Below the pieces are notes generated by a model, which did no database searches, was not told where the DNA came from, and worked only from the letters and a program-made list of their open reading frames with translations. 64,000 bases of DNA from Tribonema minus. Taxonomy: Eukaryota; Sar; Xanthophyceae; Tribonematales; Tribonemataceae. Of the stretch, positions 61-63,920 are shown in pieces (positions within the stretch are counted from its first letter, which is position 1; each line of letters starts with the position of its first letter). The stretch covers positions 62,001 through 126,000 of the forward strand of contig JAFCMP010000099.1 in assembly GCA_017506865.1 (NCBI GenBank). Direction: 5' to 3'. The position numbers and the translations under genes were made by a program.

Positions 61-346
61 CCGCGCACGTGCAGGCGAGACTACCTCAACACGCCTCCAA
101 CCCACCAGACTTCTTTCTGCTGTTCTGGTGCCGCCCCGCGCACGCATGCGTGCAGGCAAGACGTACTACCTCAACACGGCCACAGGCACCACACCGCGGC
201 TGTAGAAACGCCTCCAACCAACTGCACTTTATTCTGCTGTTGCAACAGGTGGTGGTTGTGCCAGCTGCGGGCGGCTGGCTGCCGATACGCCTCTGACCAC
301 CTTCATTCTGCTGCTGTTCTGGCGCCCCCCCCGCACGCAAATGCAG
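61..346 (+). repeat. Acceptor-side exon-echo array upstream of exon 347-542
   Basis: Three imperfect tandem units share a stretch ending in a CAG acceptor followed by a truncated copy of the next exon start (GCAAGAC...TACTACCTCAACAC). Junctions lie near 69, 157 and at the real exon (347). The first two copies lose the frame after about 30-60 bases. The shared intronic part includes CTTTCTGCTGTTCTGG and a CGCACGCA block before each acceptor. Confidence 0.75.
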
Positions 347-3300
347 GCAAGACCTACTACCTCAACACGGCGACGGGCGCCACGTCGCGGCTGTCGGAGG
401 AGCGCGCAGCAGCGCTCATTCAGGGCGCCGCCGCGACGAAGCTGGCGCCGTTCCGCTCGCGCGCGCTGGGGCATGGCGCGCTGTCGCTTGTGGACGTCGC
501 CGAGGGGCGCAAGTTCCACATGCACGCCGAGGAAAACTACAGGTATGTACACACTTTCTTGAGACAAAACAATGCAATGTAAAGTATGTGGCAGCTGCAG
601 CACTTCTGCAGGCGTGGTGGGTGCATCTGAAGTACTGGTGGGTGCATCACGCTAACCCTAATGCTACCCCTAACCCTATCGCGTCCGCACCCCTAACGGC
701 TCAGCTGCGTGCTGAGCCTGGCGATGGCGCTGCACCTGCACCCTAACCTTGATTCTCACCCTCACCTTAACCCTACGTCTAACCCTAACTCTCAGCTGCG
801 TGCTGAACCTGGCGATGGCGCTGCTCCCTGACAGTAATCTAACCCTACCCTAATGCTTACCCTAACCCTACCCCTACCCCTAACCCTCACTGCCTTTACA
901 GGCTGCACCCCCAGCGGCTCAGCTGCGTGCTGAACCTGGCGATGGCGCTGCACCTGCACCAGGGGCAGCTCGGCAAGGCGCGGCGCCTGTATGAGAGCGC
1001 GCTCGCAATATCGCCCGACAACTCGCTGGTGCAGCGCGCGTACGCCATTTTCCTGTTGGCCAGTGCGCAGGTAACTCGGTTGACCTTTCAGTAGTTGAGA
1101 ACTCTCTACAAGTATGCCAACGCAAAAATGAGAGCGCGCTCGCGATATCGCCCGACAACTCGCGCTCGCGATATTGCCCGACAACTCGCTGGTGCAGTGC
1201 GCGTACGCCATCTTCCTGCTGGCCAGTGCGCAGGTATGTTGATTGCACTTCAATTGATCTGAACTTCAACTTCCTCAAGCTGGTCATTTACATAAAAAAG
1301 GGATGAGAGCGCGCTCGAAAAATCGCCCGACAACTCACTGGTGCAGCGCACGAACGCCGTTTTCCTGCTGGCCAGTGCGCAGGTAACTTGGTTCAACTTT
1401 CAGTGTTCAAAAGTGCGATGTTGAAGAACTCCAAAGCAACCACACCCCCTGCAACGCCGCCCAACCACCCGTTGGGTGCACTCGCAACTTTCCTGCAGGT
1501 CACTGCACAGGCGAAATTGGTTCTTCTCAATTTTTTTCTCTTGTGTTTTCACATTCCGTCAAGTATGATGGGTGCTGAGCATGTGTCTCTGTGCTTTTGA
1601 GTTAAAGCAATACGCAAGTGCGTATTGTGACCTAACCCTAACCCTAAAACAAAGTCCTTGGGCGGGGGGAGGTGCCCGTTCCATGTGCAGTCGTACAGGC
1701 TCAATTAGCGTCTGGAAGTGCCGAGTGAGGCTAGGCAGGGGGCACTGCCTGAACCGCACAGAGTTTGTCACGTCGCCCACCGACTCGCGCGTACGCAGGG
1801 TTAGGGCTTGGCGCTGCGGTGCGGGCAAGGGCATGCGCGCATCACATGCTCAATCTTTGCAGTGTACACCACAACACTTCGCAGTATCGCGCTGAGAAGG
1901 ACAAGCGCCATACGCAAAGCATTTCGGGCGCGCCGCCCAGGCACTGGCAAATGGGGGCACTTGATATTACTACTCGCTCATTGCGAGCACAGCTGGGACA
2001 GCGCCCCCGCAGACATAATTTAAATTGCGGCGTCAAATCCTCGCACTGGGAGCCCTTGTGCATGTGCACCAAGTAATACCTCACCCCCCCCTTGCCCCCC
2101 ACCCCCCACCCCCGCCCGCGCACTGCTGACCAAACACTGCCGACAGGCGCCGCGCGCTGACACCGCCGCGCGCGCGCGCGCGCTGCTGAAAACCGCTGCG
2201 CGCAACGACCCTGATACCGCCATGACCAAGTTCAGGCTCGCAGAGCGCGCCTTCTACCGCTACGCGCTCGTGCTGGCGCCGCGCAGTGACCACCGCCGCG
2301 GCAGCAGTAGCAGCGGCGGCAGCGGCGGCGGCAGCGGCAGCAGCAGCAGTGCCCAGCAGAAGAACAACGCTCAGGCAGCTGTGGCAGCGGCGCCGCTGCT
2401 GCTGCTCCTGGAAGGGCCGTCAAAAGCCGTTGCCGCTGCCGCTGCTGCTGCTACTTCTAACGCCCTGGTTGTTGCTGGTGACGCCGCCGCTGCTGACGGC
2501 GGCAGCGGCTCTGGCGCCGCAGCCGCTGCCGCTGCTGCTGCCGCCGAGGGTGCGGCTGGCCCCAAGCGCAGCTCTAGAGGCAACGCGGACCGCACCGGCG
2601 CTGCTGCTGCTGCTGCTGCTGCTGCCGGCCGCGCAGCCACTGCCGCCGCTGCCCAAGCAGCAGAGATCAGCTTCACCGGCTCAGCAGCAAGAGACCTTCC
2701 GCCTTCGCAAAATCGAGCTGAACGCGGCAGCGGTGCGCGCACTGACGAGGCAGCACCAGCACCAGGGGGCTCGCAAGGGGGGGGCGGCGGCGGGGGGGGT
2801 CTGGGGGACATTCTGGAGGGGGGTGACGTGCCGGCGATGGCGATGCTCAGCTGGGCGCTGGTGCAGGAGCTCATCAGGGGCGCCGCGGACGCGGGCGATT
2901 ACGCGTATCGGCGAGCGCTGGCGTGCGCCGCGAGTGCCGACAGTGAGTCAGCGCTGAACTTAAGAATTCGACGCACGTTCATTGTGTGGTGCGGTAGCCA
3001 CTGCGCCTCAGCTCTAGCCCTGACCGATCGGCATCGGCGTAAACTGCAGCTGCCGACAGTGACCGATCAGCATCGGCGTAAACTGCAGCTGCCGACCATG
3101 ACATTGAGCCAGCGCTCAGCCGCAGCGTACGTTGCCGGAATCAGCGCCCAGCGCTACAAATGCCCTTGTGTCCTCACCATGAAAGCGTCGGCGTAAACTG
3201 CGACTGCCGACACTGAGCGATTGTGCCAGCCTGGTGTTGAGCGACCGCTATTACTTAGTCGCTGGTGATGCGTTGCCCTTCATTTGCACTGCTGGCCTGG

Positions 3301-6300
3301 GCGCACGCACCCGCTGACCCTAACCCTAACCCTAAGGCAGCTGGGACGCGCTGCGTCAACCCTAGCCCTAAGTGGCGGGCACCCTGTAACCCAGCCTGAG
3401 AGCGAGTGCCCCTCCTAACCTGGTCATGGCTGCTCCCGCTATCTTCGTATTGAGCACTAAATCTCAGCTATGAACTGTGCATGCGCAGGCCGTCGTTCAC
3501 CATTCTACTGCGTAGCTGCGCCTCACTTCTGAGCCCCAGTCCACATGTGCGCATCCCCCCATGCTGTTGCGCACTGCAATACTGCATAGTGCTGCCACAG
3601 TTCTAACCCTACCCTACCCCTAGCCCTAACCCAACCCTGTCCCCTGCGCTGTCCCGCAACACATGGACATCAGTGCGCGAGGCCGTGCGCGTGAACTATG
3701 TCGACGCGGTGCTGCGGCGGCACATCTACCTCCAATCAAACCCTAACCCTAAGCCTAATTCTAACTTCAACCCTAACCCTGACCCTAACCCTAACGTTAT
3801 CTCCTGCGCTCTCCCGCAACACGTGGACACCAGTGCGCGAGGCAGTGCGCGTGAACTACGTCGACGCGGTGCTGCGGCGGCACCCCAAGGGCGGGCCCGG
3901 ATCGGGTGAGAGCGCATACAGCACTGTGTACCGTTTTAATGGGTTTGCGTCGTGCATGCGGCGTACAAACATGTGGCCAAGGCGGTCAGCCGTGCTTGCT
4001 GTATGTGGATGCTGTATATGGATGGAAAGGGTAGAGGTCAGGTGTGGTCTGTTTTTCCTTCAAAACTCGTGATACTACATCGACGCGGTGCTGCGGCGCC
4101 ACCCCAAGGGCGGGCCCGGATCGGGTGAGTGCATACAGCTCTCTGTACTTTTTATTAATTCTCGCTCAGGGCGCGAAAATGCCCAGATGAATGGCATCTA
4201 ACTTGAAGCTTGCTGTGCGGACTCTACATGTCGTGTGACAGTCTGAAAGTGTCTCAACGACTTAATTGTAAAGGCGTTGCGTTAGGGCATGAAGCGCACA
4301 TGTGCGAGTGGAACCGTGCGTTTGTTTTTCATTTGGACTTGCTGAGACAGCTTGGGTTGGGCTTATTGGGCTTATTAATCCTACTTGTTGTTTGTTGTAA
4401 ATGCATTTTTTGCGTTTTTAGAATTATTGCCTATTCTCTCTCAGGAAATGGTTGTCGTTCTAATTATCATTACGTTTTCTGAAGTAATTGTACTCACTTT
4501 CAGGCATGCCCGCCGCACCCGCGCATATTCAGTTGCTTCGAAATGGTGTCCTTGTTTGGGGGTAAGATGCAGGAGAGAAGGCTGAGTGTAGGTCTACCAA
4601 TGTCCATATGATGACTTCAAGTTCAAGTTCAACCGCTTCGCGGGCGTCTTTGCGGCGCGTGAAAGCGGAGGGCAGGCGTGACAGCTGGCACCTCATGTGT
4701 ATACTTGCCCAGATTCAACACATTCAATCATGGCATACTCGGTCGAAAGTGCAAAAACAACTGCGACGAGGACGCTCAGTTGTGTAACTTCAACTTAAAC
4801 TTGAACCACCAGGCGTCCTGCGGCGCGCGGAGGCGGAGGAGAAGCGCGAGGAGTAGGGCCGCTAGCACTGCAATTATACTTCTATACATGCGCACATTCA
4901 CCAAACCTGATGTGACATGCTTGCTCGCAAGCGCAAAAACACCTGCCACGCGAGAGAGCTCAGTTGCATAACTCCAACATCAATTTGACCCAGGCATCCT
5001 ACGGCGCGCGGAGGTGGAGGAGAAGCGCGAGGAGTGGGGCGGCTGGCAGCGCATGCGCGATCCCACGCCGCCGCACCCCTCGCTGGCGACCTTCTGGTTT
5101 GACGCCGTCACCCAGGTGCGTTCTGGCGCACTTCTCTGTTGAAAAGTTCATTATTACGCTTGAACAGGACAAGACTATGGTTTGTTTAAGATCAGAGCGC
5201 ATGAGCGACCCCGCGCTGCCGCAGGCATCGCTGGCGACGTTCTGGTTCGACGCCGTCACGCAGGTGCGTCCCGGCGCACTTCACAGGTGAAGTTCACTTG
5301 AAGTTGAGCGGAATCAGGTGCGTTCTGGCACACTTCTCAGTTCAAGAAGCTCACTGTTTCGCTTGAACAGGACGTGACTATGCGTAGCTTTAGACCAGAG
5401 CGCATGCACAATCTGGCGCCGCCGCACCCATTGCTGGCGCCCTTCGGGTTCGACGCGTCGTCGCACGGGTGCTTTCAGGGCACCTCACAGTTGAAGAAGA
5501 GCTTATTTTTGCGCTTCTGTAGGACAGAAAAACGTGCATTCTGCGACGAGAGCGCTGCACGATTCGCCGCTGCCGCACCTGCCGTTGCTGGCGCTCTTCT
5601 GGTGCAACGCCGTCCGCAGGTGCGTGCGGCGTGGTGGTTCCTCAATGTTGAAGAAGCTCTTTTGTTTGCGCAAACTTGAACCAGATGGGCGAAATGGGAC
5701 GCAGTACTACAACGCCGCTTCCCAGGTATCTGAATGTCAAAGACGCTTATCATTGCAATCATAGTACCATAGAAATAGGGTGTGACGTGTACTGGACAAC
5801 AGCGCTACAGCGATCCGACAAGGGCAAGGGGGGGGGGGGGGGGGGGGAATACCTGTTGCTAGCGATGATCTGGTACGACGCCGTCACCCACTCAGGTGCG
5901 TCATGGTGTACCTCAATGTTGAAGAAGGGCACGACCTGCAGCCTGCAAGCCTGCAACCTTCTTTGGTGACAGCCGCTGCGACTGACGCAGGCACAGTAGC
6001 ACGGATATTGAGGGTGCTTATGTCTGCAGTGAAGATTGACATCTTGATTTCCAGTGACCACCACAGCGACCAGCTGCAATTATTGCATGTCACCAGCATC
6101 ACATGAGAAGGCCCAGTGCTGACAACACGTGGTAATCACAGCAACTTCTTATAAGTGGTAGTTCTTCATCGATGGCATGACTCTGAAGAACCTCTTTGTG
6201 AAGCACGAATGCGTCAATAGCCGCAAGGTCGACCATGAGCTTCCGTGTCCTCATTCTGCAGCCTCTGCCCCTTCCAAACGCAGAAAACCACTTGGAGTGG

Positions 6301-7169
6301 CTTTGAGCGCGATGACATATGGCGTCGGCGACGACAACGCGCTACCACAGTCAGGTACGCGCCGCCTTCACAGTGGTGATTTGAAGTACCGCAAAGACGG
6401 TGCAGAGACGCAAGCTGCGCGCTGTGCACTTGCCACGCGATGCGCCCTCGGTCAAGCAGGTGATTTGTAAATCGGTCCGCGTCTGCTTGGGATGGCACGT
6501 ACTTCAAGAATGGTGCGTACTTCAAAAAGCAACAAGCCGCATGTGGTGCACTGCAGCAGCGATTCAACGCCCACCAGCGGTTCAGAGGCATCACTACATC
6601 TGCGCAGCTCAACTCAGCTTGACTCTGACATCTGTACAGCAATGGCTTCTTGGCCATTCTGCATGGCACCTACGTTCTCTGTGTGGGATATCTCAGCACA
6701 TGCTGATGTGAATTTTTTTTGCCTGCAGACACGTCCGCCATTGCTGACGCATGGTGCTGTCGCCGGTGCGGTGCGTCACGGTGGAAGCGCCGATGGCGTC
6801 ACCTTCTCCTACGCAGCTGGACTCAGCTTGACTCTGATGTCTACACTTCTGATGTCTATACGTCAGAGTATAAGCTCTGCCAGCACGGGGGCTTCTTTCT
6901 GCCCTGCTTTTTTGCTGAAGCATCGTGCATCTACGTTCTCTGTGTGGAGTACATCAAAACAAGTGCGTGACCTTCGCGTCGACTGCTGCATGCTCTGCCG
7001 CTGATGCAGGGTGCTTTCGCCGGTGTGGTGCGTCATGGTGGACCCGGCCGACGGCCTCACCTTCTACTGCAATGCGCGCACGGGGCAGTGCCAGCTGGAT
7101 GACCCCTGTGTTCACGCGCGCGAGTCGCTGCGGTCTCCGCCGCCGGCGATTGAGCCGGAGGCCTTGTGA
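347..7169 (+). CDS. TPR and WW-like domain protein, 5' end outside window
   Basis: Exons supported by acceptor/donor and phase: 347-542, 902-1070, 2147-2942, 3834-3905, 4592-4658, 4994-5115, possibly 6406-6459, and terminal 7010-7169 with TGA. The first exon in the window opens in a WW-like strand (TYYLNTATG) and runs into an IQ-like helix (AALIQGAAATKL). Exons 902-1070 and 2147-2942 encode tetratricopeptide-like helices (LNLAMALHLHQGQ, RRLYESALAISPDN, FYRYALVLAPRSD). Exon 4994-5115 is a charged helix ending in another WW-like strand (LATFWFDAVTQ). The last exon carries a third (DGLTFYCNARTG). Such proteins are usually scaffolds; no specific function is assigned. Phases close from 347 to 3905 and from 4592 to 5115. 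The joins 3905-4592 and 6459-7010 do not close, so an exon is missing or misplaced. The N-terminus lies upstream of the window. Confidence 0.7.
690..900 (+). repeat. Acceptor-side echoes of exon 902-1070 with telomere-like tracts
   Basis: Two truncated copies of the exon start (CTCAGCTGCGTGCTGA..CTGGCGATGGCGCTG) lie at about 700-740 and 795-825. Each is embedded in CCCTAA-type repeats, and the real exon follows at 902. Confidence 0.75.
902..1070 (+). CDS. TPR exon of the TPR/WW gene
   Basis: The exon enters with one base, completing an Arg codon from the previous exon, and leaves in phase 0 at GTAACT. It encodes a textbook TPR helix pair: an N-L-A alanine-rich helix, a G-x-L turn, then ARRLYESALAISPDN. 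This is the best-conserved part of the protein. Confidence 0.75.
1128..1515 (+). repeat. Donor-side echoes of exon 902-1070
   Basis: Copies of the exon end plus GCGCAG|GTA donor lie at about 1128-1233 (containing an internal duplication of CTCGCGATATYGCCCGACAA) and 1301-1381. A further decayed copy may sit near 1477-1512. The intron flanks (ACTTCAA-type motifs) are partly shared. Confidence 0.75.
2147..2942 (+). CDS. Large exon: TPR helix plus Ala/Gly/Ser low-complexity insert
   Basis: The exon enters in phase 0 after CGACAG and exits at A|GTGAGT in phase 1. It starts with Ala/Arg-rich helices and FYRYALVLAPRSD. About 170 residues of Ser, Gly and Ala homopolymer follow, encoded by GCT/GCC/GGC repeats (about 2300-2680). 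It ends in a further helical piece (ALVQELIRGAADAGDYAYRR). The long ORFs on other frames here are low-complexity shadows. Confidence 0.65.
3300..3830 (+). repeat. Telomere-like tracts and acceptor-side echo of exon 3834-3905
   Basis: CCCTAA runs lie at about 3310-3342, 3602-3636 and 3732-3802. Between them (about 3655-3725) sits a near-copy of the next exon (GTGCGCGAGGC.. through GCTGCGGCGGCAC). It breaks off into a telomere-like tract before any donor. Confidence 0.75.
3834..3905 (+). CDS. Short exon of the TPR/WW gene
   Basis: Encodes REAVRVNYVDAVLRRHPKGG, a basic amphipathic helix. It is bounded by CACCAG and G|GTGAG and has phase 1 on both sides. A donor-side echo repeats its second half at about 4075-4125, with the same GGTGAG donor. 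Confidence 0.6.
4592..4658 (+). CDS. Probable short exon of the TPR/WW gene
   Basis: Phase 0 entry after GTGTAG and phase 1 exit at C|GTGAAA. It encodes YDDFKFKFNRFAGVFAA, and its end phase matches exon 4994-5115 exactly. The upstream join to 3905 is unresolved (phase 1 against phase 0). A possible intervening exon near 4504-4561 does not fit either. Confidence 0.45.
4813..4862 (+). repeat. Acceptor-side echo of exon 4994-5115, broken by a stop
   Basis: CAG plus the first ~48 bases of exon 4994-5115 are repeated almost exactly. The Trp codon of the exon (GAG TGG GGC) is GAG TAG GGC here, so this copy cannot replace the exon in frame. Confidence 0.75.
4994..5115 (+). CDS. Charged-helix / WW-like exon of the TPR/WW gene
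   Basis: Phase 1 entry (two bases complete an Arg codon) and phase 0 exit at CAG|GTGCGT. It encodes RRAEVEEKREEWGGWQRM, then proline-rich linker and LATFWFDAVTQ, resembling the central strand of a WW domain. Confidence 0.6.
5220..5900 (+). repeat. Donor-side echoes of exon 4994-5115
   Basis: At least four decayed copies of the exon 3' part (TGGCGACSTTCTGGTTYGACGC type) lie near 5224-5262, 5420-5475, 5568-5625 and 5850-5895. Most are followed by a GTGCGT-like donor and a TTGAAGAAG-type intron segment. A run of about 20 G sits at 5829-5848. Confidence 0.65.
6406..6459 (+). CDS. Possible short exon of the TPR/WW gene
   Basis: Eighteen codons (RRKLRAVHLPRDAPSVKQ) between GTGCAG and CAG|GTGATT, phase 0 on both sides, so it joins exon 4994-5115 in frame. 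There is no family support; the call rests on phase and splice sites only. Confidence 0.35.
6730..6860 (+). repeat. Echo of the terminal WW-like exon
   Basis: This segment resembles the start of exon 7010-7169 (GTGCTGTCGCCGGTG.GGTGCGTCA.GGTGGA) with small indels that break the frame. It continues into an ACTCAGCTTGACTCTGA segment that recurs near 10630, tying it to the downstream segmental duplication. Confidence 0.6.
7010..7169 (+). CDS. Terminal WW-like exon of the TPR/WW gene
   Basis: Enters with one base after GATGCAG and reads VLSPVWCVMVDPADG, then LTFYCNARTGQCQLDDP, ending at TGA (7167-7169). The W / G-LTFYCN-TG spacing fits a WW domain, though the second Trp is replaced. Its required entry phase (2) is not supplied by any exon I could define upstream. 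Confidence 0.6.
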
Positions 7170-10310: not shown

Positions 10311-10439
10311 TGCGGCCCTTGTGAACTATTTTGGCTGCTGTGGCTGACATCAGCCCTGATGTGACACATGCATGAGCCTTTTGTAAATCGCAGGTCTCCG
10401 GGCCCATGCTGTCTGACTCCGCATCGACTGATGCTTAAT

Positions 10440-10660
10440 CCGTCGCAGATACAGGGTGCTACCGGCAGTGCGATCTCATCTCATCCTGCTCCTAAATCAC
10501 CAGCCCCGGGTCGTCTCGAAGCGTGCAGGTTGCGTCGTCTGTTGGGCACTCCAGTCGCTGTTGCAAGGATGCTGTCGCCGCTGCTACTCGTCATGATGGA
10601 CCGCCGACGGCCTCACCTTCTCTTGCGTAGCTGAACTCAGCTCGAATTTGACATCTACCT
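10440..10660 (+). pseudogene. 3' remnant of the TPR/WW gene
   Basis: GCAGATACAGGGTGCT near 10445 and GTCATGATGGACCGCCGACGGCCTCACCTTCT (split around 10590-10620) match the terminal exon of the TPR/WW gene. They are followed by the ACTCAGCT segment seen after its echo. The frame is disrupted and no stop equivalent to 7167 is kept. It marks the start of duplication unit 2. Confidence 0.55.
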
Positions 10661-10699
10661 ATGTCTTGCCAGTGCTGCTGACCTACTTGGTATCTACTT

Positions 10700-12330: not shown

Positions 12331-12405
12331 GTTGGCTTTGGCTTGTGCGTTACTACATACTTGTGTTCGCAGAAGGTACACGCAGTTTGGCAGCAAGCTG
12401 TTACG

Positions 12406-56500: not shown

Positions 56501-59500
56501 CGCGCTGTGCGGCGCGCACAGCGACGCCGCGCGCCCGTGCGCGCAGCAGCGGCGGCTGCGACGCAAGGTATGTACACAATTTTTTCTGGTTTGCTTTCCT
56601 ACCACACTGTTTTTAAAACAAAGCTACAGCTTCAGGCGCGCTAGTTTACCGGGTGTGTTCATGTGTTTACCTAGTGCCCTTCAGATGCATGCATTTCCAG
56701 CGCGGAGGTGAGGTGCGGCCAAGCGCGCAGCAGCGGCGGCTGCGACGAAAGGTGTGTATACTTCTGAAGTACAATTTTACTGTACCTACCTACCCACAGT
56801 ACAGATGCACGTTCTGTTTTGCGGCGGCGGCGCAGCGGCGTCTATGGCTTCAGGTGCGCTAGTTCACCAAGTGTGTCAATCTAGAGCCCTTCAGATGCAT
56901 GCGTTTCCGGCGCGGCGGCTCGGCACAGCGGCGCGCGCTGCAGCGGCGGCGGCGATGCAAGATTTGTATGTACGTACTACTTGATGTGAATTCACCATCT
57001 CTATATGCCTACCACACTGTGCAGATGCGCATCTTGTTTCGCCGCCGCAGCGGCGGCCGGCCATGGCGCAAGGTATGCTGTCAAACTCCTTCTATACCTA
57101 CCTACTGTGCTGCGCATGGCCGCGCGCCGCAGCCTTGCCATGGCATCGCGCTATACCTGCCACAGCATCGCAGACCACATGCCCGTGCGCGCTGCCATGC
57201 ACCCAGTGTAGTATGCACGCATGGCTGTACGTTGTATGATTTCATACCGAACACTCACCAGCCCTCCCCCCCCCCCCCCCCCCCCCTTTTCCCCCTGCCC
57301 CCGCAGCACGGCCTCACGTGGCACGATGCTGAACCGGGCACTCACTAGCGCGGATCCCCCATTTCCCCCTGCCCCCGGCTCACATGGCACGTTGCCGTAC
57401 CAAGCACTCACTTGCGCTGATCCCCCCCCTGTTTCCCCCCTGCCCTCCCAGTACGGCCTCGCCTGGGACCCCGCCTGCGACTCCGACAACCCACTGGAGG
57501 CGCAGATCGCCCCCGGCCGCGGCGGCGCCTTCAAGCTCAAGCAGCTGCGCCGCAGCTCTTTCGGCGGCGGCGGCGCCGCCACGCCGCCCGGCGGCGGCGG
57601 AGGCGGCGCGATGGGGGATGCTGAGGCGGGCCCGAGCGCTGCGGAGGTGGCGCCACTCGCGCCGCAGGGGGGCGACCAGGGGGCGGGGGCGGTGGCCTTC
57701 AGGGGCAGGGCGTGCGCCAGCTGCCTGTCCGTCGCCGCGCCGCAGGTGAACCCCAATTAGATCTGAAGTACCTCAAAATAAAATGCCGCCATTTTTTTTT
57801 TTAAGAAATGGTTTGTCCTTTAAGGTAGGAGCTAATCCAAAAATAACAGAAAAATCAATGCTATTGAAACAAATAAGAGGACTGAAACAATTCCAAGAGC
57901 TAAACGAAAATCCCAATACGATCGACTGAGCGTCCTTCGTGGTACGCGTAGTGTGGAGCACATGCAGAATACCACCGGTGACGTCGCCGACTTGACCCTT
58001 GATACGACACGTGGGCTGGCCGTGAATAGAGCAATGGGTGGGGCGCCCCGCCTCTTGTGGAGCGCTGCTGCCGTCGCTGGGCATCACATCTGTCGATGCT
58101 ATTCTCGCTGAGCGTGACGGACAGCGACGTGCTACTCGTAGCCCCCCCCAGGGGTTACGCATCCTTCAAACCGCCGGCACGACCCACATTCTGCTGGCGC
58201 TGACAGCGCGCGCCCGCCCACTGCCGCAGGAGGACGCCGAAGCGCCGCCGGCGCTGCGCGTGGTCGTCGTCGCCATGGCGGCGGGTGACGCAGCGCGGCG
58301 CGGCGCGGCGCGGCGGCGGCGTCGAGTGCACATCCTTATTCAAACCGCATGCATACATGCCCTAAACTCTGCTGGCGCTGACAGCGCGTGCGTGCCCCTT
58401 GCCGCCGCCGCAGGAGGATGCGGAAGTGCTGCCGGCGCTGCGCGCGGTCGCCGCGGCCATGGCGGCGGGCGACCCGGCGCAGCGCGGCGGCGTCGTCGAG
58501 TGCAGCGGCTGCGGCCTGCGCGTCCACTCGCGCTGTACCGCTCCACACGACGTGCATACTGTGCATACCTTAGCCTTGAGCCACCTTGACCGCAGACGCA
58601 CGCACGCTGCCGCCGCCGCCGATACTGCAGGAGGACGCCGAGTTGCCGCTGGCGCTGCGCGCGGTCGCCGTCGCCCTCACAGCGGGCGACGCGGCGCGGC
58701 GCGGCGGCTTCGTCGAGTGCAGCGGCTGCGGCCTGCGCGTCCACTCGCGCTGCTACGGCGGCGACAGCGACGGGCAGGGCGGGTTTCAGTGCCTCGCGTG
58801 CGCGCGCGGCGTCGCGACGGCGGAGACGGCGTGCCTGCTGTGCCCCACCAAGGGTGCGTTGAGCTGCTTTTTATGACTTCAGATTCATTTATGTACTTCG
58901 AAGTATAAAGCATTTAAAACATTTGTCGTGTGCGCGCGCGGCGTCGCGACGGCGGAGACGGCGTGCCTGCTGTGCCCCATCAAAGGGGGGCAGAGCCAGC
59001 TGCAGACGCACTCGCGGGTGCAGAGGGTAATATCTGGTCAGTCATCTCTGGTCAGAGGGTGATTGTAGAAGTACCTGTTGTGTGCATAAGCGGTGTCGCG
59101 ACGGCGGAGACTGCATGCCTGCTGTGCCCCATCAAGGGTGCGTGGAGCTGCTATTGATGACTTCAAATTTGTAAGTATTTGAAGTATCTGTCATGCGCGT
59201 GCGGCGTCGCGGCGGCGGAGACGGCGTGCCTGCAGTGCTCCATCAAGGGTGAGCTGAGCTGCTGTGAGGTACCGGGCGCCAGCAGCAGATGTAGTCGTCG
59301 TGGGTGCAGGGGGTTTGCAAAGGATCCACACCTGGTAGGAGGGGAAGTTGTACTTCATATTTGAAGTACTGACAGTAGTTGTTATGTGCGCGTGCGGCGT
59401 CGCGAAGGCGGACACCGCGTGCCCGCTGAGCCCCATCAAAGGTGGGCAGCGCTGCTGTTGGGTGCCGGGTGACAGCAGCAGGCGTAGTCGTGGGTGCAGC

Positions 59501-62500
59501 GGATGTGCAGTGGATTCACTCCTGGTTGAGGGGGGTTGTATTCTTAATTGCATGCGTGAGGTGGCGCGGCCTTCTGCCACGACGGCCGAAACTCGTGCTG
59601 AGCGCATGTGCACTGTGCGGCGCGCGTGTGTAACCCACCGCCTTTTGCTGCGCAGACGCATGGCGACTTGACCGTCTGTTGGCACTGATCTCATTGCTAC
59701 ACCGCTACGCACGTAGGCAGCGCCTTCTTCCGCCACGCGGACGGCCGCAACTCGTGCTGGGTGCACACGTACCACGCGGCAGGCGTGTATGGCGTTCAAC
59801 TTCAACCCAAACTTCACCTTCATTCCCGCTGCTGCTGTTCGCCGGGTGGACGCACAACGATCTATCCGTCCATTGACTGTCGTCATCAATACACCGCTGT
59901 GCGCACAGGCGGCGCGTTCTTCCGCCACGCCGACGGCCGCAACTCGCGCTGGGTGCACGCGTACTGCGCGGCGCACGCGCCCGGCATTCAACTTCAACCC
60001 AAACTTCAACTTCAACTTACCGCTGCTGCTGCATAGATGCGTGGCGCCTCATCCTTCCAACTGTCGTCATCGCTACACCGCTGCTTATCCAGGCGGCGCC
60101 TTCTTCCGCCACGCCGACGGTCGCAACTCGCGCTGGGTGCACGCGTACTGCGCGGCGCATGTGCCCGGCGTCGCGGTCGCCGTCACGACCGGCCGCGGCG
60201 GCGCGCGCGCGCGCGCGCGTCGACCACTCCGGCGTCCCCGTCGAGCTGCGGCGCGGCGGCTGCGTCGTGTGCGCGCGCAAGGTGAGCGCTGCTGCTGCTG
60301 CTGCTGCGCGTTGCTGGTGCGGGGGTCAAACGGGTTCGTGCGGGCCGCGCCGCCCTAGTCGCGCGCTAGGGTGAGGGTAAGGGGCATGTAGGTTGCGGCG
60401 AGCTGCGGCGCGGCGGCTGCGTCGTGTGCGCGCGCAAGGTGAGCGCTGCCGCTGCTGCTGCTGCACTGCTGCCCGAAGTAATGTGCGTGCGTGCGCGTGA
60501 GAACGCATCGCGCGGCCTTCACGAGCTGCGGCGCGGCGGCTGCGTCGTGAGCGCACGCAAGGTGAGCGCTGCCGCTGCCGCTGCTGCGCTCTGCTGCTGC
60601 TGCTGCGCGATGCTGGTGCACGGGTCAAAAGCGTGCGCGCGTGATGCCGCGCCGCAGCCGCGCCCTATGGCGCCATCGTGCGCTGGGTCGCATCAAATGT
60701 TGCGAAAAAGAAGTAAGCTGGACCTAAGTTGTCAGTTCTGGTGTGCTCCGTGAAACCTCCACACTCCAAGGGCCGTTCCCCATTTGATTCGCTTCTTGCG
60801 CGCGTCGCCGCCGCAATAACTTCACTCCTTACAGCCTGTTTGCGGTTTGAGTCGGTCCTGTTGTGCTTCGCTAATGCTCTCTGCTCAAAGGGCTTGTCTC
60901 CAGTTGATTCGCTTTCTGTGTACCTCACCGCCCCATTTGATTTGCTTCATGCGTGCGTTGCTGCTGCTGCAGATCGGCGCCGTCGTGCGCTGCGCGCACC
61001 CGCGCTGCTTAACCGTGTTTCACGCGACGTGCGGCGCGCTCAAGGGCCTGTACAGGTGCGTACCGCAGCTGTACTGCTGTAAAGTGCTGCTGTACTACTG
61101 TGAACTGTCATGCCCCCTCCTGCCGCGTGCCGCTGCGGCGTCGGTCAGAGGCGTGTGGCGTGACACCTGACACAGTAGCTGACTTTGACAATACCTCAAA
61201 TTAGACATTGGCGCGCTCTAAAGGGCCTGTACAGGTGCGTACAGCCGCTGTACCTTGCAGGTTCTGACAGTGTACTGCTGTGGACACTGACGCGTCGTCT
61301 GGCGAGGACGCGCCGCACGTCGTGTTGATTGCTGTACGCTATACACTTGCCGCTTTAAAGCACTCCAAGTTCGTCGAGAAACGAACTTGAAGTTTACCTT
61401 TTAGTATCAACAGCGTCTGTGCGGCAGCATAGACTGAGCGATGCTTTCTCATGCCCGTGCAGCCGGCGCGTTGCGCCCGGCGAGGACGCGCCGCGCGTCG
61501 TATTGACTGGTATACACTACAGTACCTACCTGCCGCTGCAAAGTACTCCAAGTTTAACGAGAGAAGTAAAGCTTTTCACTACGAGACGAAAACAAATAGC
61601 ACACACTGAGCAATGCATTTTTTTTTCCACCCCTGCAGTCGTCGCGTCGCGCCGGACGAGGACGCGCCGCGCGTCGCATTGCCTGGCACGGACTGCATAC
61701 TTGCCACTAACTAGTACTCCATGTGTCTCGAGAGAAGTATCCATTCTCGTGGAAAGCACACACACTGCAATGGCGAGGCAGCACAGACTGAGCAATGCCG
61801 TTTGCGCCCCCGCAGCCGGCGCGTCGCGCCGGACGAGGATGCGCCGCGCGTCGGCGGCGTCGCGTGCGCCTACCGGTCGCGCCGCGCGTCATTTTGACTG
61901 GTATACACTATGCACTTGCCATTTCGAACTCTAAGCTTTTTGAGATAAGTGTACCTTCTCATAAATGAGTACTTCGTACACACAATGCGCGTTTGCACGG
62001 CAGCTCAAACTGAGCAATGCAATATTTTGTGCGCCCCTGCAGCCGCCGCGTCGCGCCCGGCGAGGATGCGCCGCACGTGGGCGGCGTCGCGTGCGCCTAC
62101 CTCCATTACTGCGCGGAGCACACGCCGGCCGGCGTCTACCGCATCAGCACGGGGCACCTGGTCAACATCTGGGCCCTGCAGCGCATACGCACCGACCTGG
62201 ATAACGTGAGGCCTCGCGCAGTGTTCATTTCGCTATGTAGGCCTGTTCCGTAGCGACACGGTCGGTTCACGGTCGGTTATGCTCGGTACAACAAACGCCT
62301 CACTTGAACATGAAGTTAGCATCAGCACGGGGCACCTCGTCAACATCTGGGCGATGCAGCGCATCCGCAGCGACCTCGACAACGTAAGTTCCGTGCGCAG
62401 TATTCATTTCGCCCCATGTGGCGTACTTGATGTTAATGCGTTGCAGCGCATTGGCACCGACCTCGACAATGTGAGGCCTCGCGCGGTATCCATTTTGCTA

Positions 62501-63920
62501 TGTGGCCTGTTCCATAGGGTCACAGTCGGTCCACGGTCGGTTACGCTCAGTTCAAGAAACGCCTCACTTCAACATGCAGTTGGCATTGGCATGTCGCACT
62601 TAAAGTCCACGCACTGCAGCGCGTTCGTACCGACATCGACAATGTGAGGCCTCAGGTGGCATTCATTTCATGAGCCTGGCCTGCTCCGTAGTGGCTCGGG
62701 TCTGTTTGCTTGGTTGGACACAACGCCTTACTTCAACATGAGGTTAGCATCGGCAGCAAGGGGCACCTGGTTGACGTGCGCGCGCTACAGCGCATGCGCA
62801 CCAACCTTGACAATGTGAGACCTCGTACGCAGTGTTCATTTCGCTAGCGGAGACAGTGGCGCGGCGGCGTGTGGGTGCGCGCAGAGTTTGCTGTTCTGTG
62901 CACTGGACCCTAGCAGCACGCTGCCTGGTCCTTCCCGCGTTCGCCGTCGCGTGCGCCGCGCGCGCGGGCAACTTCCCTCGTGTGTGCTCTCCCCCTTTGC
63001 CCCCCCCCCACCGTGCACAGTGACCTCACGTTCATTGCCGCGCGCAGCCCTGCTGAGTTGCAGAAAGCTTGCTGATTTGAAGTCCAATGCGTAGCAGACT
63101 CGAATGCCGCAGGAGGCCTCCTGGAGCCAGCTGCTTCGCACAATACTTCATGTTGCCACAAGCGTCAACCATCGCCTTCACAGACGCCAAGCGAAGCAAG
63201 CAATTGCTCCTTGAAGTTGAAGTGTCTGGGTTCCGCTCACGCGCGCTGGCGGCGCAGCAGGCACTTGTGAACACATGGTCGTTGACACTGTGTGCATGAC
63301 CACGCCTGAGCCTCGGGGGCGTACTCGCCGAGATGCGACGTGTCCGCTCCAACACTCAGCAGGCACATCGCCGAATGCGCCTTCACCGCTGCTGTTGTGA
63401 CAGCGCAGAGTCTTGGCCGTTGCTGCCCGCACCGCAGCTTGCGAAGGCGTGCGCGCGCACTCGCGCGGAGCCTCCTTGCGTTTTAGCAGTCCCTCGTCGC
63501 AACAGCAGGGCCCAGCTCGCATTCGTCTCTGCGCGCTGCGTGCGCGCACTGCTCCCCTTACTTAGGGTTACGTTAGAGTTAGAGTGAAGGTGAGCCTTTA
63601 TGCTCGCCCCTCGCCCCCTACACATAGCGGGCTCGCACTGATTGCGACGTGTCCCTCGCTCCCTCGACGCAGGCGCGCCTAGTGTGAGGTTAGGGTTAGC
63701 GTGAGGTTAGGATGAGGGTCAGGTTTCATGCTCGCCCCTCGCTCCACACTCATAGTGGCCTCACATTCGTTGCTGCGCACTCGTGCACACAAATTCGCCT
63801 CCCGCTCCCCCGGTGCAGGCGCGGCTGCTGGCGGACTCTTCGAAGCGGCGCGAGCGCAGGAAGGGGCAGCGCGCGGAGGCCGTGGAGCGTCACTACAACG
63901 CGTGCCTCGACCACTTATTT
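33785..63920 (+). CDS. Protein with three PHD/extended-PHD modules, 3' end outside window
   Basis: Exons: 33785-33992, 35117-35567, 37386-37448, 38428-38521, 39671-39829, 40848-40968, 42262-42395, (43043-43090), 43605-43782, 44514-44653, 46064-46138, 46794-47174, 47847-47906, 48669-48784, 49933-50089, 50609-50776, 51673-51745, 53324-53515, 54933-55012, 55798-55893, 56421-56567, 57452-57745, 58631-58853, 60093-60281, 60973-61055, 62043-62205, 63819-63920. Phases close at every junction except inside 60093-60281. About 1400 codons are seen. Three PHD fingers are each followed by an extended PHD (C2HC knuckle plus second PHD), a combination known from BRPF, JADE and KMT2-type chromatin readers that bind histone H3 tails and nucleosomes. 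No catalytic domain lies within the window. The start (CAATCATGG) is plausible, but the frame is open further upstream, so the start is uncertain. Nuclear role inferred. Confidence 0.8.
34977..35110 (+). repeat. C-rich tract with short tandem repeat before exon 2
   Basis: Repeats of ACCTCACTT..GAC units interleaved with C-runs directly upstream of the acceptor at 35116. Likely polypyrimidine-tract expansion. Confidence 0.5.
35640..36245 (+). repeat. Donor-side echoes of PHD-gene exon 2
   Basis: Four copies of GGGCGCACACGGCGTGCGCGCTGTGGG..GGAGGTGCACTTCATGGACRG|GT lie at about 35685-35750, 35820-35881, 36005-36070 and 36192-36243. All keep a GT after the junction. Translated, each would repeat the ePHD knuckle (HTACALW). 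Confidence 0.88.
36246..37385. other. Intron 2 remainder, no coding exon recognised
   Basis: Contains G-runs near 36820-36835 and 36995-37010, a TTCAACTTCAA motif doublet (36738-36775) and otherwise unique sequence. The ORFs here lack family features. Confidence 0.4.
37617..38230 (+). repeat. Echoes between PHD-gene exons 3 and 4
   Basis: Donor-side copies of exon 3 (GGCAGCGGTTCACGCTGCGCTGCCAGTAAGT type) lie near 37625-37680 and 37768-37812. Acceptor-side copies of exon 4 with their intron (ACAGACGAGCRTAGACTGTGAAA..ATCCTTCCG then CTG repeats and GGATCTG) lie near 37976-38075 and 38125-38225, before the true copy at 38330-38450. A (GC)8 run lies at 37906-37922. Confidence 0.85.
38990..39670 (+). 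repeat. Acceptor-side echoes of PHD-gene exon 5
   Basis: Four copies of GCAGGCGCGCCTGCGGCGGCGCGTGCGGCCGATCGACGCCG type lie near 38993, 39150, 39302 and 39480. Each runs about 70 bases into the exon and then changes to a shared AACATCGAAGTATC..TCTGTTC intron stretch with a TTGAAGT-type motif. Confidence 0.88.
39671..40968 (+). CDS. PHD-gene exons 5-6
   Basis: Exon 5 (39671-39829) reads ARLRRRVRPIDGAVPDGEVR, then YYFYCSKPAHQAEAV and VNLAQSLAQ. Exon 6 (40848-40968) reads FSPGHNVAIMNAHERRLLG, then KMLRYVRALRADAQGHP. No named domain. A linker with helical, basic character follows the first ePHD. Confidence 0.75.
40015..40670 (+). repeat. Echoes between PHD-gene exons 5 and 6
   Basis: Donor-side copies of exon 5 (CGCGTGYGCGCYGTCAACCTGGCGCAGTCGCTCGCGCAGGTAC) lie near 40020-40072 and 40165-40202. 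An acceptor-side copy of exon 6 (GCCGCAGTTCTCACC..GTGTGGCCCTC) lies near 40618-40662. Confidence 0.8.
40990..41840 (+). repeat. Donor-side echo array of PHD-gene exon 6
   Basis: At least six units start with a copy of CTGCGCGCGGAKGCGCAGGGGCACCCCC and end in CTTCATGTTTGAAGTTGG..ATGTT. They lie near 41000-41110, 41209-41300, 41345-41420, 41458-41545, 41628-41715 and 41800-41830. Exon content shrinks from about 60 to about 25 bases across the array. Confidence 0.87.
42262..42395 (+). CDS. PHD-gene exon 7
   Basis: Completes an Asp codon and encodes a Pro/Glu-rich stretch followed by FASWAGKQLGLDLSAAQFWP, exit phase 0 at GTG|GTACGT. A poly-C tract (42080-42102) and C-rich acceptor region precede it. 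Confidence 0.72.
42500..42965 (+). repeat. Donor-side echoes of PHD-gene exon 7
   Basis: Three copies of GGCCGGCAAGCAGCTGGGCCTCGACCTGAGCGCYGCGCAGTTCTGGCCTGTGGTACGTAT lie near 42492-42550, 42690-42752 and 42898-42960, each followed by a TACTTCGAAGTA-type motif. Confidence 0.88.
43043..43090 (+). CDS. Possible small exon of the PHD gene
   Basis: Sixteen codons (SRMERSPTARSPRRRP) between TGTCAG and CCA|GTAAGT, phase 0 on both sides, so it can be included or skipped without changing frame. Ser/Arg-rich; no family support. Confidence 0.4.
43180..43604 (+). repeat. Five-unit tandem array before PHD-gene exon 8
   Basis: Units of about 85-110 bp: CGCTACGCAGAATGAGACACTCTCTGCGTACTCRA, CCCTAA-type repeats, then CCTGTCRCCGCGCGCAGCAGGTCA. 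The last unit runs into the true acceptor and exon start (ACAG|GTCAGCG at 43605). This is an acceptor-side echo whose unit is mostly intronic. Confidence 0.85.
43605..44653 (+). CDS. PHD-gene exons 8-9
   Basis: Exon 8 (43605-43782) encodes SEYFAEDHDPAWLEHLLTSI, then a Gly/Ser/Ala run. Exon 9 (44514-44653) is Pro/Arg-rich and ends KVTAVVQHGEREAGAQ|GTGCGC. No named domain. Confidence 0.72.
44785..45235 (+). repeat. Donor-side echoes of PHD-gene exon 9
   Basis: Copies of GGCAAGGTCACCGCGGTCGTCCAGCACGGCGAKCGCGAAGCCGGCGCGCAGGTGCGCC lie at about 44800-44858 and 45172-45230. Both are followed by the same TTCATGCYT..TTCTGAAGTA..TTGGTATTTTCTT intron stretch as the true exon. An acceptor-side echo lies near 44340-44372. 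Confidence 0.88.
45236..46063. repeat. Intron 9 with duplicated intronic blocks
   Basis: GCCGGTGCTGCGGCGC..CACCGACGACAACGCTGC and the CGTCGCCGT..GTAC..CTTGTTTTCCGGTGC block occur at 44985-45080 and again at 45350-45535. GGCTAACCTCRACCCC..CTGCCYATCTATMGCCTGCGCGCTC occurs at 45825-45880 and 46000-46052, the second copy ending at the exon 10 acceptor. Confidence 0.7.
46064..47174 (+). CDS. PHD-gene exons 10-11: Pro/Gly/His-rich linker
   Basis: Exon 10 (46064-46138) reads FAVRLLQAPLGPPVNGIEIE. Exon 11 (46794-47174) has imperfect PPGAPHG / APHGTFQVPPGMPGG repeats (about residues 25-75 of the exon), then a coiled-coil-like ADELEALSAQLREVTALNA. Phase 0 on all sides. Confidence 0.72.
46490..47460 (+). 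repeat. Echoes around PHD-gene exon 11
   Basis: Upstream, GCGCCAGCGCAACGTACTCC..CAATCT..CTGCTCGC occurs near 46525-46570 and 46720-46775. Downstream, decayed copies of GAGGTGACAGCGCTCARCGCCGCSAGRYTGGACCCCATGGTG lie near 47283-47325 and 47411-47452. Confidence 0.7.
47620..48470 (+). repeat. Echoes around PHD-gene exon 12
   Basis: A GCTGAACGTGCGCGCTGCTCGCTGCYGCYGTGCGCAGG block precedes both a truncated copy (47595-47655) and the true exon (47808-47906). Donor-side copies of CACAGCGCCRAGCGCGCGCACAGGGCCGAGGTGCGTGCYGCTGCCAT lie near 48284-48325 and 48428-48480. Confidence 0.78.
47847..48784 (+). CDS. PHD-gene exons 12-13
   Basis: Exon 12 (47847-47906) encodes VDDLRARTAKHSAERARRAE, a basic helix. 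Exon 13 (48669-48784) reads LVQRWSRVHLWAAVAKALA and ENFNQFHRNDGLR, exit phase 2. A donor-side echo of exon 13 lies at 48893-48940. Confidence 0.72.
47986..48080 (+). repeat. Dispersed repeat DR1, copy A
   Basis: About 90 bp: GCAACAGCGGCGAACACGGT, then TGGAAGGCACTTGCGGCTA, then CACCTAGAGCTCTACGATC and TTTGATTCGTTTTC. It recurs at 53870-53962 (+) and in reverse at 52755-52828. Confidence 0.75.
49535..49932 (+). repeat. Acceptor-side echoes of PHD-gene exon 14
   Basis: Copies of GCAGCCGCCTRAYTCCCATGGACGTGCGCCAGGGCACCGCGC lie near 49541-49592 and 49757-49800 before the true exon at 49933. Intron pieces (AGTGCAATT..GTCAGGGCTC and TTCTTGCCTTTGCAATTT) intervene. Confidence 0.83.
49933..50089 (+). 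CDS. PHD-gene exon 14
   Basis: Completes a Ser codon and encodes RLIPMDVRQGTALPGHGAEL, then an Ala/Glu-rich helix (ALEEAERALHP) and an Ala/Gly run. Exit phase 0. Confidence 0.72.
50609..50776 (+). CDS. PHD finger 2, complete in one exon (exon 15)
   Basis: VCMVCLHGDDTAHDVVFCDG, CGVGAHTSCCG, then KYHCESC: the full C4HC3 ligand set with canonical spacing and the FCDGCG core typical of histone-tail-binding PHD fingers. Phase 0 on both sides. It is followed by GTGCGC. Confidence 0.88.
50878..51400 (+). repeat. Donor-side echoes of the PHD finger 2 exon
   Basis: Four copies of GAGAAGTACCACTGCGAGTCGTGCGTCTTCATGCAGGTGCG type lie near 50888-50935, 51028-51070, 51182-51225 and 51355-51398. They carry shared intron pieces (TATGCAACTTCAAGAGTGC, ACCATTCAGTGTTGC.AACTCTACTGGTA). 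Confidence 0.87.
51673..55893 (+). CDS. Extended PHD 2 (exons 16-19)
   Basis: Exon 16 (51673-51745) gives LTCALCPVRHG. Exon 17 (53324-53515) gives LKLTSDGRWAHLACALWAEG, DLESMGNVDISRV and a Gly-rich tail. Exon 18 (54933-55012) gives TCCFCHQ. Exon 19 (55798-55893) gives SEGHLLACTEDACAQRFHFL, then CAW. Together this is a full C2HC knuckle plus second PHD. Phases: 1, 1, 0, 0. Confidence 0.83.
52055..53320 (+). repeat. Seven-copy acceptor-side echo array with telomere-like tracts before exon 17
   Basis: Seven copies of GTGGCAGTGCTCAAGCTCACGAGCGACGGCCGCTGGGCG lie near 52273, 52427, 52572, 52694, 52893, 53023 and 53178, before the true exon at 53324. Each unit contains CCCTAACCCTAA runs and a TTCATATACTTGAAGTATCACTTCATC-like stretch ahead of CTCTGAGCCC. 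Confidence 0.9.
52755..52828 (-). repeat. Dispersed repeat DR1, copy C (reverse)
   Basis: Reverse complement of the DR1 core (CACTTGCGGCTAACCA..CACCTAGAGCTCTACGATC..TTTGATTCAT). It is inserted within an echo unit of the exon 17 array, so it postdates at least that unit. Confidence 0.7.
53605..54700 (+). repeat. Donor-side echoes of PHD-gene exon 17
   Basis: Copies of GCCATMGGCAAGGCCGCGGCGCCGCCTGCCCCTCAAGARTGGCCC type lie near 53612-53685 and 53785-53865. More decayed copies lie near 54085-54145, 54258-54330 and 54625-54695. Each is followed by a GGTAAAAGAGG/TCACTTG-like intron start. Confidence 0.83.
53870..53962 (+). repeat. Dispersed repeat DR1, copy B
   Basis: Same orientation as copy A, with closely matching sequence from GCAGCGGCGACCACGGTTG to TTTTGGTTCGTTTCC. 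It abuts the end of an exon 17 echo (AAGAAAGGCTGCAGC). Confidence 0.72.
55430..55797 (+). repeat. Acceptor-side echoes of PHD-gene exon 19
   Basis: Repeats of GCYGAYGTSAATATCTTCCACAGAGCGACGGTCACCGAATTC type near 55540-55590, 55655-55700 and 55702-55745, plus GAGGGGCACCTGCTGACGTGCA near 55630. They precede the true junction TTCCGCAG|AGCGAGGGGCACC at 55798. Confidence 0.78.
56220..57120 (+). repeat. Echoes around PHD-gene exon 20
   Basis: Upstream, GTTGGCCATACTTCAACTGTGCAGATCGCCGACCCC..TTCCCGGGGTTCCC occurs at 56238-56330, then again at the true exon (56396-56490). Downstream, decayed copies of GCGCAGCAGCGGCGGCTGCGACGMAAGGTRTGTA lie near 56727-56765, 56925-56975 and 57040-57075. Confidence 0.82.
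56421..57745 (+). CDS. PHD-gene exons 20-21: linker and start of PHD finger 3
   Basis: Exon 20 (56421-56567) reads IADPTFASTVPAHRATFPGF, then LRALCGAHSDAARP. Exon 21 (57452-57745) reads YGLAWDPACDSDNPLEAQIA, FKLKQLRRSSF, a Gly-rich run, and ends RACASCLSVAAPQ, whose CxxC is probably the first ligand pair of PHD finger 3. Confidence 0.75.
57285..57451 (+). repeat. Acceptor-side echoes of PHD-gene exon 21
   Basis: CCCTGCCCCCGCAGCACGGCCTCACGTGG at 57292 is a truncated copy of CCAGTACGGCCTCGCCTGG at the true exon. The intervening GC.GAACC..GGCACTCACTAGCGCGGATCCCCC unit is repeated. A run of about 20 C lies at 57266-57286. Confidence 0.75.
57785..58150 (-). mobile_element. Possible retroposed sequence with A-tail in intron 21
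   Basis: On the minus strand an unrelated segment of about 360 bp shifts from GC-rich to AT-rich (TTTCAATAGCATTGATTTTTC) and ends in A11 (plus-strand T-run near 57787). This looks like an inserted cDNA or SINE-like copy: it interrupts the otherwise echo-derived intron and matches nothing else here. No target-site duplication could be identified. A minus-strand ORF of 129 codons runs through it but was not recognised. Confidence 0.4.
58185..58570 (+). repeat. Acceptor-side echoes of PHD-gene exon 22
   Basis: Two long copies: CCGCAG|GAGGACGCCGAAGCGCC.. at 58231-58325 and CCGCAG|GAGGATGCGGAAGTGCTGC.. at 58415-58540. The second keeps the zinc-ligand stretch VECSGCGLRVHSRC in frame. Both are preceded by a CATCCTTMWTCAAACCGC..CTGCTGGCGCTGACAGCGCG intron block. 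Confidence 0.87.
58631..62205 (+). CDS. PHD/ePHD module 3 (exons 22-25)
   Basis: Exon 22 (58631-58853) has FVECSGCGLRVHSRCYGG, FQCLAC, then the ePHD start CLLCPTKG. Exon 23 (60093-60281) has FFRHADGRNSRWVHAYCAAH and GGCVVCARK. Exon 24 (60973-61055) has VVRCAHPRCLTVFHATCGAL. Exon 25 (62043-62205) has VACAYLHYCAEHTPAGVYRI and HLVNIWALQRIRTDLDN. The ligand set is complete. Within exon 23 the frame changes across a (GC)n run near 60205-60222 (see findings). Confidence 0.8.
58925..59450 (+). repeat. Donor-side echoes of PHD-gene exon 22
   Basis: Four copies of GCGCGYGGCGTCGCGACGGCGGAGACGGCGTGCCTGCTGTGCCCCATCAARGGTG lie near 58933-58990, 59090-59142, 59196-59252 and 59388-59444, with TTTGAAGTA..TTGTCGTG intron joints. 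Each would encode the CLLCP knuckle. Confidence 0.9.
59700..60092 (+). repeat. Acceptor-side echoes of PHD-gene exon 23
   Basis: Copies of GCGGCGCSTTCTTCCGCCACGCSGACGGCCGCAACTCG lie at 59718-59790 and 59907-59985. Each ends in the same TTCAACTTCAACCCAAACTTCA intron motif, before the true exon at 60093. Confidence 0.9.
60390..60972 (+). repeat. Echoes between PHD-gene exons 23 and 24
   Basis: Donor-side copies of GAGCTGCGGCGCGGCGGCTGCGTCGTGTGCGCGCGCAAGGTGAGCGCTG lie at 60399-60450 and 60521-60572. Upstream of exon 24, TTTGATTYGCTTCWTGCGTGCGTYGC-type blocks recur near 60783, 60905 and 60937. Confidence 0.85.
61200..62042 (+). repeat. Echoes between PHD-gene exons 24 and 25
   Basis: A donor-side copy of exon 24 (GGCGCGCTCTAAAGGGCCTGTACAGGTGCGTAC) lies at 61210-61243. 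Acceptor-side copies of GCAGCCGGCGCGTYGCGCCSGGCGAGGACGCGCCGCGCGTCG lie at about 61295 (partial), 61460-61505, 61638-61682 and 61815-61870. Each unit carries CACACTGAGCAATGC and ..ACTGGTATACACTA..CTTGCC blocks. Confidence 0.88.
62320..62830 (+). repeat. Donor-side echoes of PHD-gene exon 25
   Basis: Copies of ATCAGCACGGGGCACCTSGTCAACATCTGGGC..CAGCGCATMCGCA.CGACCTSGACAACGT lie at 62325-62386. Increasingly decayed copies lie near 62443-62475, 62605-62648 and 62750-62822, each followed by GAGGCCTCGCGCAGT.TTCATTTCGCTATG. Confidence 0.87.
63550..63818 (+). repeat. Acceptor-side echo of PHD-gene exon 26
   Basis: TTTATGCTCGCCCCTCGC..CACA..TAGYGGSCTCRCA..GCAGGCGCG occurs at 63597-63680 and again at 63725-63825, the second copy leading into the true exon. 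GTTAGGGTTAG-like tracts lie at 63560-63580 and 63685-63720. Confidence 0.75.
63819..63920 (+). CDS. PHD-gene exon 26, last exon in window
   Basis: Thirty-four codons, phase 0: ARLLADSSKRRERRKGQRAE, then AVERHYNACLDHLF, ending at GTGAGT. A basic helix continues the protein beyond the window. Confidence 0.7.

Follow-up and report, generated by a model that had tools for sequence, protein, structure and literature searches.

Partial tandem copies of splice junctions beside exons in a 64,000-nucleotide stretch of Tribonema minus DNA

In three intron-rich genes of Tribonema minus, the ends of many exons recur as partial copies in the introns next to them. These copies, which we call echoes, are laid out in tandem, are concentrated at splice edges and show neutral-looking decay, and introns with more of them are longer. 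We consider it probable that they arose by recurrent repair of staggered breaks near splice edges, followed by expansion of the resulting arrays, while selection kept the exon intact.

The stretch analyzed here (“the window”) comprises 64,000 nucleotides of nuclear-type eukaryotic DNA, and its three intron-rich genes all lie on the + strand. Our exon map holds 47 exons with 88 splice edges and was built from splice signals and reading-frame continuity, together with homology. The NOC2-like gene (12406..29386, + strand) has 15 exons that form a single open frame with GT/AG sites; its spliced product matches the Pfam family Noc2 (8e-79) and can be aligned over residues 358-732 with PDB chain 8fkv_NA (“Nucleolar complex protein 2 homolog”). 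For the multi-PHD-finger gene (33785..63920, + strand) 26 exons were mapped in the window, and since the last of these ends at a donor site the gene appears to continue beyond it. Its product matches zf-HC5HC2H_2 (Pfam, 4.2e-36), with four PHD-type families above cut-off and one just below. The frame stays open until exon 23, where it slips within a (CG)n run at about 60200-60240 (either a sequencing error or real), and exons 24-26 are open in the shifted frame. The third gene, at the left end of the window (347..7169, + strand), has WW (2.4e-05, just below the family's own cut-off) and TPR_14 (1.8e-06) matches; six of its exons were used, and its map is uncertain in that exons 2, 3 and 6 could not be joined into a continuous frame.

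As control DNA we used an intronless FNIP-repeat gene (30340..31773, + strand; FNIP, 2.2e-19) and intergenic sequence, together with a small potato-inhibitor-I-like gene (8923-9150, - strand). A decayed copy of the latter lies at 11216-11525, and gene and copy are part of a segmental duplication of ~2.3 kb (8443-9131 versus 10790-11525; also 6999-7065 versus 10556-10621). Long C-runs occur at 35183-35227, about 42080-42100 and about 57262-57290; two are intronic and one, in PHD exon 2, encodes proline. Scanning the window with Rfam (gathering threshold) and for tRNAs gave no matches, and searching IMG/VR for a segment of NOC2 and for the FNIP protein gave no confirmed relatives.

To score echoes, the exon's own edge of 50 bp was searched in the adjoining intron and a match was counted if it exceeded the best of 100 shuffles. 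Echoes were found at 52/88 splice edges (18/28 in the NOC2-like gene, 27/50 in the PHD gene and 7/10 in the WW/TPR gene) and amounted to 128 copies in total; 36/88 edges had none. The last 50 bp of the exon recurred in the downstream intron at 31/44 donors and the first 50 bp recurred in the upstream intron at 21/44 acceptors, as against 1/34 and 1/33 tests (2/67 together) for the opposite edge of the exon. An earlier note on this DNA, made from the letters alone, had claimed that partial junction copies lie beside exons, with acceptor edges copied upstream and donor edges downstream, and our counts bear out both statements. These figures describe one window and three genes; echo calls depend on the threshold, and copies within one array are not independent events.

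Mid-exon stretches recurred in 3/22 and 3/21 tests, and 2/120 intergenic/FNIP windows showed recurrence (0/18 for FNIP alone). Among coding-sequence edges that are not splice sites 1/8 had an echo, a weak one at the stop end of the WW gene. This edge (7119-7169) has its copy downstream of the gene, by eye at about 7490, and it leaves room for a cause that is exon-based instead of splice-based.

For later analyses we kept the hits that reached to within 10 bp of the junction, which comprise 120/128 echoes at 49 junctions. At least one kept echo was present beside 32/47 exons, so that “nearly every exon”, as the earlier note had it, was too strong; it also gave 1-9 copies per exon, and the highest number that we found at any one edge was 8. 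When queries were instead taken from the intron side (44 edges, three offsets each, low complexity unmasked), repeats were found in 59/132 donor and 67/132 acceptor tests. Of these 126/264 positive tests, likewise unmasked, 37 were at edges lacking a kept exon-side echo, and some near-edge repetition therefore includes no exon.

Self-comparison of the window gave the same picture of local, direct repetition, with 227 direct and 12 inverted self-matches. After masking of low complexity there were 187 direct repeat pairs, of which 181 lay no more than 1.5 kb apart and 6 lay farther. Local direct repeats take up 41% of the intron sequence and 32% of the exon sequence but are absent from all 9,634 bp of intergenic, FNIP and inhibitor DNA; none of the 181 local pairs links two exonic stretches. 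They group into 55 arrays, of which 49 hold at least 12 bp of exon and 47 span a splice junction. When the exon maps were rotated 500 times, the number of junction-spanning arrays averaged 22.8 and never exceeded 33. Counted singly, donor edges also exceeded the rotated maximum (26 observed versus 25), and acceptor edges were within chance (22 observed, with as many in 31/500 rotations).

Of the 55 arrays, six include fewer than 12 bp of exon, and none of these was counted as an edge array. One of the six overlaps PHD exon 4 by 7 bp and another contains exon-20 donor echoes; by eye, others resemble acceptor echoes whose exon part is short. That intron-only arrays are scarce is no artefact of detection, because at each of five settings the search recovered implanted intron-only duplications of 14-30% divergence in 112-120 out of 120 trials. 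Equal tandem duplication in non-genic DNA, which by the earlier note's own account would tell against its claim, was thus looked for with the repeat coverage, the intergenic/FNIP controls and the implant trials, and was not found. Its statement that the FNIP-like gene and intergenic DNA are free of echoes holds for FNIP and for the local arrays, and is qualified by the 2/120 windows, by the stop-edge echo and by short-period repeats outside mapped exons. The latter (35-56 bp periods; 16665-16735, 18890-18998, 39589-39666, 3021-3096 and 55656-55740) belong to another size class than the edge units of ~170 bp. A sequence of ~63 bp occurs three times in introns of the PHD gene (48020-48081, 53896-53960 and, inverted relative to these two, 52755-52817) and looks like a small dispersed element.

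Adjacent units are spaced at a median of 168.5 bp (IQR 135-192, n = 120), a length that resembles the nucleosome repeat, maybe by coincidence. The exon part of the echoes has a median of 41.5 bp (5-95%, 20-76 bp) and reaches the whole exon in 0/120 cases. The intron part was measured in the nearest unit and has a median of 113 bp (47/49 junctions, spacing up to 300 bp). Intron-side homology of the nearest echo was significant at 43/49 junctions, indicating that each unit was copied whole, exon part and intron part together. Where the exon was no shorter than the unit, its share of the unit was non-uniform (p = 0.003, n = 21); breakpoints appear to be anchored near the junction even in long exons, although the extension rule may shorten old exon parts. 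Within several arrays one or two exon breakpoints are common to the echoes, which points to founder duplications and then array expansion.

The individual arrays, all on the + strand, illustrate these features. In the NOC2-like gene the exon 13 donor array (26102..26947; functional edge 26156) holds 8 echoes, the exon 3 donor array (14395..14851) has tandem units of ~148-160 bp and the exon 6 donor array (17816..18656) is rich in TTAGGG. Further NOC2 arrays from the repeat-array analysis are at the donors of exons 4 (16139..16363) and 14 (28197..28675) and at the acceptors of exons 4 (15788..16066), 9 (20781..21326), 10 (22730..23303) and 12 (24844..25349). In the PHD gene, the exon 17 acceptor array (52177..53375; functional edge 53324) holds 7 echoes and lies in the intron where CCCTAA hexamers are most numerous. 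The first unit of the exon 6 donor array (40911..41823) is a tandem copy of 94 bp that is 93% identical, and in the exon 7 donor array (42344..42974) three echoes have an exon breakpoint, at 52 bp, in common. Four echoes each are found in the donor arrays of PHD exons 2 (35463..36253), 15 (50729..51401), 22 (58794..59550) and 25 (62141..62846) and in the acceptor arrays of exons 5 (38974..39742) and 25 (61291..62101); the exon 9 donor array (44591..45384) comes from the repeat-array analysis.

Across 44 introns, length was correlated with echo number (rho 0.78), with a slope of about 128 bp per echo (SE 18). We infer the direction of this relationship, namely that echoes lengthen introns, since longer introns also give echoes more room. 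The suggestion in the earlier note that junction copying lengthens introns agrees with this correlation, and its suggestion of a recurrent process that amplifies junctions agrees with the number of junction-spanning arrays and with the intron-side homology of the nearest echoes.

We propose the following course of events. DNA straddling the exon-intron border, about 20-76 bp of exon and 53-198 bp of intron, would be duplicated in tandem repeatedly. The exon-contiguous splice site (the first donor or the last acceptor), whose use we judge from the reading frame, would still give the normal protein, and the duplication would be tolerated. The extra border would become intron, and the intron would gain one unit. 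Founder duplications may then be multiplied by further local duplication or by unequal exchange, their copies decaying without function while the exon is held fixed by selection; duplications internal to exons would presumably be removed by selection. The founders would most likely stem from fill-in and end joining at staggered breaks, or at paired nicks, close to splice edges, with telomere-like repeats sometimes added at the break, and such breaks would cluster at splice edges. Repair of staggered breaks is expected to leave a short segment followed directly by its own copy in the same orientation, and the echoes are of this kind.

Telomere-like hexamers may hint at break repair, their enrichment being modest. 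Inside array spans, 23.8 kb of intron carry 34 clusters of them, and the 21.9 kb of intron outside carry 15 (p = 0.02, with array copies not being independent), which corresponds to 1.43 and 0.69 per kb, compared to 0.31 in intergenic DNA (3 in 9.6 kb). Hexamers of the CCCTAA or TTAGGG type are concentrated in introns, mostly in a single orientation per intron (17816-18656, 43196-43582, 52177-53375, 648-960 and 3601-3883), and CCCTAA is more often in the acceptor half of introns (37 versus 18). An orientation with CCCTAA toward acceptors and TTAGGG toward donors is suggestive, the independent cases being few; CTAAC also resembles a branch point. In horse, telomere-like insertions are attributed to break repair and the direct duplications at 3/66 telomere-like loci to staggered breaks (PMC7215372).

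Why should duplications accumulate at exon edges? A duplication over a donor leaves the first donor beside the exon and one over an acceptor leaves the last acceptor, so that neither kind need show in the protein. This tolerance of exon-contiguous sites is by itself enough to give the observed layout, in which donor copies lie downstream and acceptor copies upstream. The same tolerance covers duplications in the interior of introns, which are expected to be commoner and which our search detects well. The concentration at edges therefore needs a cause, unless the ancestral introns were very short. One possibility is that tandem duplication struck genes at random when introns were still 150-300 bp long, such that most tolerated events hit an edge, and that growth multiplied these founders. 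Under random placement, the share of tolerated duplications that straddle an edge is 21-24% on the present map and would be 30-33% if introns measured 690 bp, 58-63% if they measured 300 bp and 73-79% at 150 bp. The last value is not far from the observed 47/55 (85%), and the founder-plus-expansion structure of the arrays also fits this explanation. However, the observed share exceeds 65% (p = 6e-4), the 9.6 kb of intergenic/FNIP DNA have no local array, intron-only duplications would be detected, and the exon breakpoints lie near the junction even in long exons. We therefore regard random duplication in short introns as unlikely.

Another possibility is that splice junctions are duplication hotspots in this lineage, where a factor tied to splice sites or to the chromatin of exons would repeatedly cut the DNA around exon borders and refill a stretch about one nucleosome long, and introns would grow outward as a conveyor of ageing junction copies. 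This idea is tentative and we would give it somewhat less than an even chance. Donor and acceptor echoes are associated on the same exon (counts 17/12/2/10, p = 0.019) and show no association in the same intron (10/19/10/5, p = 0.059), and thus the exon would be the target of such a factor. The GC content of the edge, the adjoining intron and the exon did not differ between edges with and without echoes, and no sequence cause was found.

It could also be speculated that fragments of pre-mRNA around splice sites were reverse transcribed and entered the gene by ends-in recombination, leaving tandem copies. This would account for the anchoring at splice junctions and for the near-absence of echoes outside intron-bearing genes; however, the copies are local and contiguous, and no echo joining two exons was recognized with 44 exon-exon queries. 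The 19 alignments that cross an exon join by at least 12 bp were read as single-edge copies, PHD paralogy or low-complexity matches. An RNA-mediated origin is accordingly improbable.

If the echoes were alternative or decoy exons or splice sites, they would be under selection, and two observations could be taken in this sense: most keep their GT/AG sites, and their exon side is more similar than their intron side. Their divergence does not support it. Mismatch between echo and functional exon was 6.9/6.7/14.4% at codon positions 1/2/3 (109 echoes in the two well-mapped genes), and 36/42 indels in these echoes were not multiples of 3. The equal divergence at positions 1 and 2 indicates that echoes are without coding constraint, and the excess at third positions is of the kind expected from synonymous changes in the functional exon. 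Where the alignment spanned the splice dinucleotides, GT was kept in 64/72 donor and AG in 35/44 acceptor echoes, close to the neutral expectation of ~87% that follows from a site rate of 6.8%; these dinucleotides are neither retained nor purged by selection. Use of the echo junction would preserve the frame and the ORF in 1/95 echoes tested (the WW gene and PHD exons 23-26 were left out).

The identity contrast between the two sides is also not decisive. Because identity on the exon side is inflated when that side is used to find the echoes, we repeated the comparison with intron-side queries. Among 56 echo-echo pairs identity was 0.807 on the exon side and 0.750 on the intron side, the exon side being higher in 37 pairs and lower in 15, and among 34 exon-echo pairs it was 0.800 and 0.757 (exon higher in 19, lower in 14). 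One-sided versus two-sided divergence can explain this contrast at least in part, and we make no claim of selection or gene conversion. Function in the echoes is thus very improbable. The nearest echo was more similar to the exon than the farthest in 25/32 arrays, less similar in 6 and tied in 1 (p = 0.003).

Finally, mis-merged haplotypes or chimeric reads are hardly credible as the source, because divergence at codon positions 1+2 spans 0-16% (5-95%) with a two-fold excess at third positions, and an assembly artefact should be blind to codon position and should not spare intergenic DNA.

How introns lengthen without transposons is poorly understood. In the genes studied here, intron length can partly be read as a count of duplication events, each with a neutral clock in the exon part of its echo. 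If the pattern extends genome-wide, it would provide dated histories of intron growth, make the DNA beside each exon a natural test bed for neutral mutation and help to trace a mutational process able to recognize exon borders. Because most echoes keep intact-looking splice dinucleotides, they could also mislead gene predictors.

Several known systems share some of these features. In minisatellite-like intron arrays, tandem units multiply after a founder event, as we propose for the echoes; ordinary arrays of this kind are not known to be tied to splice junctions, whereas here the great majority span one. Tandem exon duplication and mutually exclusive exons likewise place repeated exon sequence in adjoining introns. 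In contrast, the copies described here are partial and neutral-looking, and the coding constraint that alternative or mutually exclusive exons would have was absent from them. Among the best-listed matches in the open-access literature we found no description of junction-anchored duplication arrays; other partial gene duplications are described in PMC10487979.

Introners are dispersed mobile elements that create introns (PMC9860276). They resemble the process proposed here in being recurrent and in altering introns in many genes. On the other hand, the echoes are local copies that carry exon sequence, and the masked direct pairs, nearly all of them local, showed no element with homologues scattered through the introns of several genes; the earlier note's distinction between this process and introner insertion therefore stands. 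Closer to our case is Rogers-type intron gain by tandem genomic duplication, where an exon-internal AGGT is duplicated such that the start of the new intron copies the next exon and its end copies the previous one (PMC3443670, PMC2891723). Both processes involve a local tandem copy of exon sequence that splicing hides while the protein frame is kept, as is the case here. The geometry is different, with 0/120 echoes within 15 bp of the position expected from such an event, and so is the outcome: in Rogers-type events new introns arise, while in the genes studied here existing introns lengthen.
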